Shown: positions 560 to 8,934 of the stretch, in pieces
How positions within the stretch are numbered: position 1 is the first letter of the stretch
Layout of the letters: every line of letters begins with the position of its first letter
Source of the DNA: an uncultured Clostridia bacterium
GTDB taxonomy: Bacteria > Bacillota > Clostridia > Oscillospirales > Acutalibacteraceae
NCBI GenBank assembly: GCA_945863885.1
Contig: CAMAZY010000008.1
Span: 1-64,000, forward strand
Direction: 5' to 3'
DNA length: 64,000 bases
Translations under genes and position numbers: made by a program
The notes under the pieces: model-generated
What the model saw: the letters and a program-made list of their open reading frames with translations, nothing else
Databases searched by the model: none
What the model was told of the DNA's origin: nothing

Positions 560-2410
560 TCAAAAATTCCATTTGGGCTTTCGGGGTAAATCGGCATTGC
601 TTTGAAAGCCGGTCCGAAGCTCATACGCTTTTATCTCCCGTATAAACAAGGCAGCATATTTATCTTTTTTCACTTCTCCGACACCGGGAATTTCCGAAAA
701 CTCTTTTATATTGGTCGGTTTTTTCGATGACATGATTTTTAAGGTGGCGTCTGTAAAGACAGTAAAAGCCGGTATCCGCTTACTTGATGCGATTTCTTTT
801 CTTAGTTTTTTCAGAATGTCAAACAAATCTCTGTCAAAGCTTTCGCTTTCATCATCAGCAGATAAGTTTTGTCGGGCTTTTCTTGCCGAAAAGTCAACCG
901 ACTTACCGGAAAACAGAACAGATTTTGATTTTTCGGTTATTCGAAGCCGTCCGCCGTCCGAATCAATATAACCGTTACGGATAAGAAGATTGATGATTTC
1001 GCTGACTTTTGCCAACGGGACGTTTTTCATCAGGCCGAAAGTCGAAAGACGGTCAAAGCCTTTTTCGCTCACCTGAGACGTTACGTTGCCTTTCAAAATA
1101 TCGGTAATGAGTTCACTATTCACATTCTGACCGGTTCTGACGATGCAGGACAGGATCATTTTTGCATATTGATTCAAGCTTTCTTTGTTGTCATCATTCC
1201 GGCATGAGGAACAATTTCCGCACTTTTCTGCCGTTCTTTCGCCAAAGTACGACAATATGTATCGTCTGAGACACCCTGTGCATTCGGCGTAGCCGATCAT
1301 ATCGTCAAGCTTGCGCAGCCGAAGCTTTCGAAGCTTTGCCGCATCGAGAGAAGAAAGTTCTTCATTTTCGCTTGGATTCTCGATAAAAAAGCGTTGGGTT
1401 CTGATATCGCCGGCGTTGTACATCAATATACAGTCGGCACTGCAGCCGTCTCTGCCGGCTCTTCCGGCTTCCTGATAATAGCTTTCAATGTCCCCCGGCA
1501 TATTGTAGTGGATAACAAACGAAACGTTCGATTTATCAATTCCCATACCGAAAGCATTTGTGGCGACTATGATCTGCTTGTCGTCGTTGACGAATTCTTC
1601 CTGGTTTTGCTTTCTTTCCTGAGCGCTGAGTCCGGCGTGATACTTGGTAACACTGAGACCTTGCGCCGAAAGGACTTCATAAAGCCGGTCCGTTGTTTTA
1701 CGGGAAGAACAATAAATGATTCCGCTTCTGCCTTTGTAAAGCGCAAGATACTGTTTCAGTGTTTCCGGTTTGTTCTTCGGTTTAACGACTTCAAAATACA
1801 GATTCTTCCGATCGAAACTTAATATCGATACAGTCGGGCCCAAAAGCCCGATCAGTTCGATGATATCCCTGCGGACTCTTTCGGTTGCCGTAGCGGTGCA
1901 GGCACAGACAACCGGTCTTTTGGAAAACCGATTGACAAAATCTTTGATTTTAAGGTAATTCGGACGAAAATCCTGACCCCATTGTGAGACACAGTGTGCC
2001 TCGTCAACAACAACCATAGAGATCTCAACTTCGTCACACAAAGCGGAAAACGCATGTGTGTTCAGCCGCTCCGGGGCAACATAGATAATTTTATAGGCGC
2101 CTTTTCTGGCTCGTGTAAGCGCAAGTGAGATTTGCTTTTCATTCAGCGAGCTGTTCAGATATGCCGCTTTCACGCCGTTCTGGATCAAGGCATTGACCTG
2201 ATCTTTCATAAGAGAAATCAAGGGTGATACGACGATTGTTATCCCTCTAAACATCAGAGCCGGCACCTGAAAACAGATCGATTTTCCTGCTCCCGTCGGC
2301 ATGACGGCAAGCGTATCTTGTCCCGAAAGCAGAGAGTCAATGACATTTAATTGCCCTTCACGAAAAGACGAATAGCCGAAATACTCCGATAATACTTCAT
2401 ATTTATCCAA
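560..2410 (-). CDS. recQ: ATP-dependent DNA helicase RecQ; probable TTG start (LDKYEVLSEYFGYSSFREGQ) rather than the upstream ORF start
   Basis: FREGQ, MPTGAGKS, VDEAHCVSQWGQDFRP, QEAGRAGRDG, Zn-binding C-rich RQC region and HRDC-like C-terminus. Purine-rich AGGGA precedes TTG at 2410. Confidence 0.93.
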   Translation of the reverse strand: MDKYEVLSEYFGYSSFREGQLNVIDSLLSGQDTLAVMPTGAGKSICFQVPALMFRGITIVVSPLISLMKDQVNALIQNGVKAAYLNSSLNEKQISLALTRARKGAYKIIYVAPERLNTHAFSALCDEVEISMVVVDEAHCVSQWGQDFRPNYLKIKDFVNRFSKRPVVCACTATATERVRRDIIELIGLLGPTVSILSFDRKNLYFEVVKPKNKPETLKQYLALYKGRSGIIYCSSRKTTDRLYEVLSAQGLSVTKYHAGLSAQERKQNQEEFVNDDKQIIVATNAFGMGIDKSNVSFVIHYNMPGDIESYYQEAGRAGRDGCSADCILMYNAGDIRTQRFFIENPSENEELSSLDAAKLRKLRLRKLDDMIGYAECTGCLRRYILSYFGERTAEKCGNCSSCRNDDNKESLNQYAKMILSCIVRTGQNVNSELITDILKGNVTSQVSEKGFDRLSTFGLMKNVPLAKVSEIINLLIRNGYIDSDGGRLRITEKSKSVLFSGKSVDFSARKARQNLSADDESESFDRDLFDILKKLRKEIASSKRIPAFTVFTDATLKIMSSKKPTNIKEFSEIPGVGEVKKDKYAALFIREIKAYELRTGFQSNADLPRKPKWNF

Positions 2411-7388: not shown

Positions 7389-8501
7389 TTATTTATTTGT
7401 TACGACGGTTTCCGCTTCGGTATACGCTTTCGGCATTTCAATGTTGAGAGAAGCAAGTACCTCAGAGTTTACAACCGGATCGGCTTTGGAAATTGTCTGA
7501 ACGGCCATCGTGGAAGCGTCGGCACCGTTGAGAACCTCGATTCCCATATTACCGGTGACCTTGCCGAGTTCAACATAGTCAATAGAAACAGCGGCAAGAC
7601 ATCCGTTTTTAACCTGTTCAACTTCAGAACCGTAAACCGGAATGCCGGCTTCGTTGGCTGCGTTCAGAACAACAGAAAGATTGTTAACAACCTTGTTATC
7701 GGTGAAGTTATTGATGCAGTCAACTTCTGAAGCAAGAGCGGCAGCTGCTGCCGGGATATCGGAATCGTTCTGAATACCCGTAGCTTTAACCTCGATATTT
7801 CTCTTTTTACATACTTCTTTGAGTGTGTTGAGCTGTGAAATAGAGTTGGCTTCGCTTGTTGTGTAAAGAATGCCGATTGACTTAACGTCCGGCTGCATTG
7901 ACTGAATCAGATCAACTTGTGCATCAAGGTTCAGAACATCGGAAGTGCCGGTACAAAGAGAACCCGGATTCTCCATTGAGTCAACGATTTTTGCAGCAAC
8001 AGGATCAGATACAGCGCAGAAAATAACAGGGATATCCGTACCCTCCGTAGCGGCATAAGCAACCGTGGCGGCAGGAGTAGCAATGGCAAAAATCATGTCA
8101 TACTTTTTGGCTACCATACTTTCAGCATACGTCTTACAGTCTGAATCTGCGGCAGCATCGGAACCAATCTGGCGGTCAAGCTCATATTTAAGACCGCTTT
8201 CTTTCAAAGCAGTTTCTATTCCGGTGTAGCAGTTGTCAAGAGACGGATGAGAAACATATTGAATAACGCCGATTTTCAGTGTTTTACCATCGGAAGCGCC
8301 GTTTGCTGAGGTCTTCTCAACAGAGGAAGCAGTGGTTGCTTCATCGGAAGAATCTTTGGTTGCATCAGCAGAAGAAACAGTGGTTTCCTCAGTAGAAGAA
8401 TCTGTAGCGGAAGTGTCGTCTTTTCCGCCGCAAGCAGCAAAGGCAAAGATCATTGCCGCACAAAGAATCAGTGCAAGAACTTTAATAATTGATTTTTTCA
8501 T
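7389..8501 (-). CDS. trpX: ABC transporter substrate-binding lipoprotein, ABC_sub_bind family (TrpX-like)
   Basis: Lipobox-like signal (MKKSIIKVLALILCAAMIFAFAACGG), Ser/Thr linker, then IGVIQYVSHPSLDNCYTGIETALKE. Downstream of a T-box with Trp specifier. Confidence 0.82.
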   Translation of the reverse strand: MKKSIIKVLALILCAAMIFAFAACGGKDDTSATDSSTEETTVSSADATKDSSDEATTASSVEKTSANGASDGKTLKIGVIQYVSHPSLDNCYTGIETALKESGLKYELDRQIGSDAAADSDCKTYAESMVAKKYDMIFAIATPAATVAYAATEGTDIPVIFCAVSDPVAAKIVDSMENPGSLCTGTSDVLNLDAQVDLIQSMQPDVKSIGILYTTSEANSISQLNTLKEVCKKRNIEVKATGIQNDSDIPAAAAALASEVDCINNFTDNKVVNNLSVVLNAANEAGIPVYGSEVEQVKNGCLAAVSIDYVELGKVTGNMGIEVLNGADASTMAVQTISKADPVVNSEVLASLNIEMPKAYTEAETVVTNK

Positions 8502-8575
8502 TTTAAATGACTCCTTTTGATTTACTGTATTTTATTTTATGATAGGTTTCGGTGTGTGAAGACTCAGATAAAGCT

Positions 8576-8605
8576 TCACCATCGTTTTGTCAATAAAATC
8601 ATCAT
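8576..8605 (-). CDS. Putative tryptophan leader peptide MMILLTKRW* between the T-box terminator and trpX
   Basis: Minus strand reads ACGGAGGAATCAAT-ATG ATG ATT TTA TTG ACA AAA CGA TGG TGA: GGAGG Shine-Dalgarno 7 nt upstream, Trp as the last sense codon. Confidence 0.55.
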   Translation of the reverse strand: MMILLTKRW

Positions 8606-8617
8606 ATTGATTCCTCC

Positions 8618-8656
8618 GTAAAAAATAAAAAAAGCTTGCCCCTGAAAAGGGACAAG
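8618..8656 (-). terminator. T-box intrinsic terminator
   Basis: Minus strand CTTGTCCCTTTTCAGGGGCAAG followed by CTTTTTTTATTTTTT. Confidence 0.85.
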
Positions 8657-8900
8657 ACTTAAAATCCTGCGGTACCACCCAAATTGATGTTTCCATCCAC
8701 TCTTCATTGCACAGATTATGCAACCCGACTTGATAACGGGTACGGCTCCCGTCGGTTACTACTTGCTTACGCTTTCGACCGCCCTCATAAGTCCATTCGC
8801 CAAAAGGCCGGATACCGAAATCACACCGTCATCGGCTCTCTAAAATCCGGGAACTAAAGGTTACTATTCTTAATCTCAGGTTTCGTTTCTTCATTTGTTG
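8618..8900 (-). ncRNA. T-box riboswitch with UGG (Trp) specifier
   Basis: Minus strand contains T-box core TTTGGGTGGTACCGCAGG (8665-8685 region), AGAGAG GA-motif, specifier loop GCGAA-TGG-ACTTATGAG (TGG complement at 8793..8795), and terminator CTTGTCCC/GGGGCAAG plus U-tract. Confidence 0.93.
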
Positions 8901-8905
8901 ACACG

Positions 8906-8934
8906 ATTTTAGCACATTAAAGTCATGATGTCAA
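8906..8934 (-). promoter_or_regulatory. Sigma-A-like promoter for the T-box/trpX operon
   Basis: Minus strand TTGACA-17 bp-TAAAAT. Confidence 0.75.

Follow-up and report, generated by a model that had tools for sequence, protein, structure and literature searches.

The leader of the anti-TRAP gene rtpA (yczA) of Bacillus reportedly consists of a Trp T-box and, behind it, a leader peptide, rtpLP, which is said to contain several Trp codons and to end in a stop codon that adjoins the rtpA Shine-Dalgarno (SD) sequence. To our knowledge, double sensing of tRNA charging, by a T-box and a leader peptide, is known for one Bacillus regulatory gene. In the TrpL attenuators of Proteobacteria, ribosome pausing at the Trp codon or codons drives an adjacent hairpin switch and terminator, and TnaC and the macrolide leader peptides act by nascent-peptide arrest at the peptidyl-transferase centre. 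The papers on the Bacillus subtilis rtpA leader (Chen and Yanofsky 2003, 2004) are cited in PMC11255114. Elsewhere, a Trp-specific T-box at trpXYZ of Streptococcus suis responds to Trp limitation (PMC9382623), His leader peptides replace T-boxes at hisZ and hisS* in bacilli (PMC2965389), and an upstream open reading frame (uORF) with Arg-Leu-Arg is described for hflX in Firmicutes (PMC8632094).

The locus described here lies in a stretch of 64,000 nucleotides (the window) from an uncultured Clostridia bacterium of the Acutalibacteraceae, and combines a Trp T-box, a short leader peptide and a trpX-like transporter operon. It resembles S. suis trpXYZ in that a Trp T-box precedes transporter genes of the same family, and differs from it in the leader peptide, of which the text of PMC9382623, searched for 'leader' and related terms, makes no mention. 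As at rtpA, a Trp T-box governs transcription, and a short Trp leader peptide downstream would add a translation-level sensor of tRNA-Trp charging, a concept that is read here from sequence. Unlike rtpLP with its several Trp codons, the peptides found here have one Trp codon after a near-invariant CGA; their stop codons lie mostly 35-80 nt from the main ATG rather than beside the SD, and the genes behind them serve Trp acquisition and do not include anti-TRAP. The original prediction for this locus, made from the window alone, had named the Bacillus rtp leader as its precedent, and the match holds for the concept, without the stop beside the SD and the several Trp codons. Like the TrpL attenuator, the arrangement has a short leader peptide with Trp codons and ribosome pausing as the putative sensor; unlike it, there is no conserved hairpin switch or terminator, and a T-box stands upstream. 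It shares with the hisZ/hisS* and hflX leaders the use of a regulatory leader peptide in Firmicutes, and departs from the His leaders of PMC2965389 in that T-box and peptide occur in tandem, the T-box first, with one trpB leader (L266) in which the T-box is missing. The layout is thus known in concept from rtpA, and its KRWR/CGA-TGG form without SD occlusion appears to be new. No description of the KRWR peptide was found in the literature searched, which is weak evidence, because subscription papers were mostly outside reach.

The leader of the trpX-like operon

All elements are encoded on the minus strand, in the order promoter, Trp T-box, terminator, SD, MMILLTKRW* and a trpX-permease-ATPase operon. 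The predicted sigma-70-type promoter, TTGACA-N17-TAAAAT (8906..8934, minus strand), is a consensus match at 11 of 12 positions. The T-box leader (8645..8886, minus strand) matches RF00230 with 98.8 bits (E 1.6e-20), above the gathering score of 93 bits, and has UGG as its specifier, GAA-UGG-AC aligning at the specifier position of the Stem I loop. Its bulge, UGGU, meets a tRNA-Trp gene that ends in GCCA (discriminator G) with a U-G wobble rather than a Watson-Crick pair. The UGGU bulge also occurs at one other locus (L346), and many relatives have UGGC instead. The intrinsic terminator of the T-box (8626..8656, minus strand) reads CTTGTCCC-TTTTCA-GGGGCAAG-T7 and comprises a 9-bp stem (8656-8635) and the T run.

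Behind the terminator, a GGAGG (8613..8617, minus strand) forms the SD of the leader peptide, and homologous uORFs are likewise SD-preceded. The uORF itself (8576..8605, minus strand) runs from 8605 to 8576 as ATG ATG ATT TTA TTG ACA AAA CGA TGG TGA, which gives nine residues and a stop; a second in-frame ATG lies at 8602, and the conserved CGA-TGG (Arg-Trp) codon pair occupies 8579..8584. The original prediction had placed a GGAGG and a short ORF ending in TGG-TGA between the T-box terminator and trpX, and all of these elements are present there on that strand. The window also contains a hairpin, GTGAAG-N12-CTTCAC (8556..8579, minus strand; arms 8579-8574 and 8561-8556), which is lineage-specific. 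The trpX SD (8516-8511) begins 60 nt from the uORF stop, and the trpX ATG lies at 8501.

The first gene of the operon (7389..8501, minus strand) encodes a substrate-binding protein of PF04392 (Pfam, 3.9e-69). Its match to the TrpX model NF041285 (E 1.2e-73, 248 bits) falls under the 390-bit cut-off, and the protein is therefore named trpX-like. It is followed by Pfam-assigned genes for a trpY-like ABC permease (PF02653; 6367..7302, minus strand) and a trpZ-like ABC ATPase (PF00005; 5597..6370, minus strand). The Trp T-box, and not the protein family, is the basis on which we infer the substrate of the trpX-like protein. A further relative, 38% identical, is encoded elsewhere in the same genome (G000:C52).

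Conservation of the peptide and its reading frame

Homologues of trpX were gathered across the genus, family, order and class, together with named genomes; most of these are metagenome assemblies, the related species among them do not count as independent, and start codons were chosen automatically. An SD-preceded uORF with Trp within its first 24 codons is present in 53 of the 104 distinct T-box-trpX leaders, one of the 53 (L125) looking spurious. The usual motif around Trp is (K/R/E)-R-W-(R/Q), within a peptide consensus of M-x-(L/I)-L-(T/S)-(K/R)-R-W-R, and a single Trp is found in 82/87 RW uORFs. For example, a sister species with a 90% identical TrpX (L014/L119) has the leader ATGAAAATCTTATTGACCAGACGATGGCGC..., encoding MKILLTRRWRGFI*, and Acetanaerobacterium elongatum (L175) encodes MIILNRRWRRLY. 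A smaller class, including Eubacterium callanderi (L194), has GW, GWW or DGW in place of RW, and we take its GWW forms to resemble TrpL in sequence. The claim that a Trp leader peptide is nested behind the Trp T-box is borne out by these comparisons, in which the SD and the Trp codon are conserved in close and distant relatives.

Many Ruminococcus-like trpX leaders have no uORF. Leaders that lack a uORF usually have little space from the terminator T-run to the start codon (many 18-60 nt, versus 85-201 nt in those with one). An RW uORF is present in 42 of the 81 leaders in which this gap is 60 nt or longer; 60 dinucleotide shuffles gave 1.2 on average and 5 at most. A genome of the same genus as the window (G022; L120/L015) has a decayed-looking uORF in its T-box-trpX leader, with LLTSVK... 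for LLTKRW. Five GW-class leaders (L057, L060, L063, L067 and L081) have a Trp uORF that runs on into trpX in the same frame, and a ribosome starting there would extend TrpX N-terminally, before the lipoprotein signal.

The layout is not special to a Trp transporter operon, since it also occurs before trpB, trpE and trpD; the module is not a trpX peculiarity. A pattern of T-box core, T-run and CGATGG was found in 70 of 300 family genomes, versus about 6 for a reversed control; some of the matches are merely main-gene starts, and most are uORFs such as MILLTKRWRDLKTYH. The uORFs found in this way precede genes for trpX-like and other PF04392 binding proteins, trpB, a trpB-like gene and an ECF S component encoded in the same direction as trpB, and a phylum-wide run located uORFs in other families before trpX-like genes, trpE (L323) and trpD (L316). 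About two thirds of the 30 loci in a TrpB-based set, which was not selected for CGATGG, have the uORF, and the specifier is UGG in 10/10 printed T-box alignments of uORF-bearing loci, which belong to different genes. At one locus (L231, 1893-158, minus strand), an ECF S component (PF07155) stands between the Trp T-box with its KRWR uORF and trpB, and is a candidate Trp or indole transporter. Another, which belongs to the TrpB-based set (L266), has MLLTKRWRCSR* before trpB, with a promoter directly upstream and no T-box match; its leader spans about 1370-1525 (plus strand), and a congener (L210) retains the T-box. The L266 lineage therefore appears, from its sequence, to have lost the T-box and kept the leader peptide. 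In the genome of the window, a Trp-like T-box (AA-UGG) before a trpB-like gene (L010, contig C10) is without a leader peptide, showing that the module is not on every Trp T-box.

A functionless chance ORF in an AT-rich leader would be compatible with a reading frame of only nine codons and with a hairpin region that folds like shuffled sequence, but conservation over genera, gene types and families refutes it, and we consider this explanation practically eliminated.

In the trpX set, whose selection did not involve CGA, 41/41 RW uORFs have CGA as the Arg codon before Trp; in the downstream genes, CGA accounts for 3.3% of Arg codons. At the nucleotide level CGATGG is near-fixed (84/86), although this 86-member RW set includes loci found by the CGATGG pattern, and the CGA counts are for that reason taken from the 41-member trpX set. 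CGA is not absolute, since the TrpB-based set contains one CGC-TGG and one Ser-Trp leader. Upstream of CGA, the uORF frame is under coding selection. Across the five preceding codons in pairs of similar uORFs, single-nucleotide codon differences comprise 596 synonymous and 633 nonsynonymous changes in frame, versus 204/1,179 and 59/1,230 in the other two frames; these pairs are non-independent, and the frame control holds relatedness fixed. Residue preferences relative to Trp are L/I/M at -4/-5, T/S at -3 and K/R/E at -2, and codon +1 encodes Arg in 72/86 uORFs with a free third base (entropy 1.82, versus 0.50 and 0.46). Selection on the coding frame argues that the uORF is translated.

These data bear on two further explanations. 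If CGAUGG were a non-coding RNA motif or a protein-binding site, and the frame incidental, its near-fixation would be expected, as would the GATGG seen in several GW-class leaders. Such a motif is very improbable, given that CGATGG almost always lies in frame behind an SD-preceded ATG and at a varying distance from it, that the third base of codon +1 is free, that the five preceding codons evolve synonymously in that frame only, and that one trpB leader has CGC-TGG. The main rival to a pause dependent on tRNA charging is nascent-peptide arrest, in which KRWR, a motif of the +X+ type (Arg-X-Arg), would stall the peptidyl-transferase centre, perhaps aided by free Trp, and the gene would answer to free Trp or some other ligand and not to tRNA charging. 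Peptide-level conservation beyond Trp, at residues -5 to -2 and as Arg at +1, and the in-frame synonymous excess are in keeping with arrest, and the Arg-Leu-Arg uORF of hflX in Firmicutes has been treated as such a motif (PMC8632094). However, arrest leaves the fixed CGA codon unaccounted for, and both the GW(W) class and the forms ending in RW-stop, including that of the window, are missing either the basic residue at +1 or the R-X-R spacing. Few residues precede Trp, and ligand-dependent arrest peptides are normally longer than this before the stall. We consider arrest unlikely.

Terminal Trp and structure downstream of the peptide

The original prediction assigned regulatory roles to the hairpin at TGG-TGA and to a single Trp in the last position, and neither is a conserved property. 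GTGAAG/CTTCAC was not found in the 90%-identical sister species (L014/L119) or in relatives generally, and it was rejected as a regulatory element; in the window, the hairpin region alone folds like shuffled sequence (z -0.47). From TGG to the trpX start, the 53 uORF leaders have a mean fold z of -0.07 (median 0.14; two under -2), and in the window no terminator was found between the uORF and trpX. Besides the window, at least three further loci have forms ending in RW-stop, two before trpB (L265 and L246) and one before a trpX-like gene (L304). Judged from sequence, terminal Trp is a derived state, a CGA-to-TGA change of an ancestral RWR. Recurrence of this change suggests that decoding of TGG outweighs what comes after it. 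Alignment of related leaders, which had been proposed as a check, retained the SD and the Trp codon and lost both the hairpin and the terminal position of Trp.

Structure is also central to translational attenuation, in which a ribosome paused at TGG would open a hairpin that hides the SD, or a terminating ribosome would cover the SD, as in Bacillus rtpA. The T-box-less leader L266 can pair CAAGAUAA with UUAUCUUG beside the trpB SD, and a ribosome at TGG would cover the 5' arm. At some loci (for example, L047, L243 and L276), the SD is predicted to become more accessible once the footprint is kept open. However, L266 does not fold better than its shuffled versions (z -0.61), and pairing between the post-Trp region and the downstream SD (z -1.3 to -2.3; |z| <2.4) barely exceeds swapped controls; base pairing that joins this SD to the uORF or to the post-Trp region was set aside as a weak, composition-level signal. 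The gain in predicted accessibility of the main SD with the footprint open is small, from a mean of 0.484 to 0.529 (0.49 to 0.51 in the window). Distances are a further difficulty: the 60 nt between the uORF stop and the trpX SD in the window are too many for occlusion, and stop-to-ATG spacing among relatives is variable, ranging from -26 to 122 nt. Attenuation of this kind may operate in single lineages, and as a general mechanism it is decidedly improbable.

Other candidates were considered and rejected. Rho rut-like composition showed a small excess of C over G (18.0% versus 14.8%), with C>G in 67% of leaders with a uORF versus 46% of those without, and was not decisive. By inspection, UGG-N of the uORF does not serve as a second site for the tRNA acceptor end, as the T-box bulge base and the post-TGG base mismatch, and a second ORF from the ATGG inside CGATGG has variable lengths and no SD. 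Frameshift coupling to trpX was discarded because the spacing of TGG and the trpX ATG varies modulo 3.

Probable tandem sensing and the CGA-Trp codon pair

Because a KRWR peptide is kept before several Trp genes in many gut bacteria, these genes probably sense Trp twice. We favour, with fair though far from full confidence, a tandem Trp sensor that joins a T-box responding to uncharged tRNA-Trp with ribosome pausing on a leader peptide. Uncharged tRNA-Trp would cause the T-box to antiterminate, and the transcript would then reach a short translated leader peptide, M-x-L-L-(T/S)-K-R-W-R, in which one obligatory Trp codon is met right after CGA. With CGA in the P site and Trp-tRNA scarce for the A site, the ribosome would pause at TGG, and this pause would make the downstream Trp gene more strongly expressed under Trp shortage, or reduce its expression once Trp is plentiful again. 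The paused ribosome would act directly on the transcript, shielding its 5' part from decay or blocking Rho; either output is favoured over an attenuator hairpin because neither a conserved hairpin nor a conserved SD-sequestering structure was found. Several observations count against a tandem sensor. Beyond the uORF, no conserved RNA switch was found that would couple it to the gene, the T-box already senses uncharged tRNA so that the redundancy needs justifying, and many Ruminococcus-like trpX leaders, like the Trp T-box before the trpB-like gene in the genome of the window, do without the peptide.

The codon before Trp may contribute to sensing. The genome of the window contains a tRNA-Arg(ACG), which is expected to read CGA via inosine, and A-I wobble is reported to be inefficient (Curran 1995, as cited in PMC10454642). 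A slow CGA in the P site before a lone Trp codon would sharpen the sensitivity of the pause to Trp-tRNA. A more specific and more tentative proposal, possible but on present evidence doubtful, is that (M)xLLTKRWR with an invariant CGA-TGG is a widespread Clostridia module, a pausing Trp sensor without an RNA switch, in which weak inosine-adenine wobble in the P site makes the lone Trp codon hypersensitive to Trp-tRNA, and which works in tandem with a Trp T-box and in at least one lineage replaces it. The near-fixed CGA ahead of the lone Trp codon points to a sensor made up of the codon pair.

Small ORFs are missed in annotation, leaving the Trp T-box leaders of these genomes incompletely annotated. 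Many gut Clostridia appear to acquire Trp or to convert indole, and since in many genera the KRWR peptide goes with Trp T-boxes that precede genes for transport, salvage and biosynthesis, it may be a general design of gut Clostridia.
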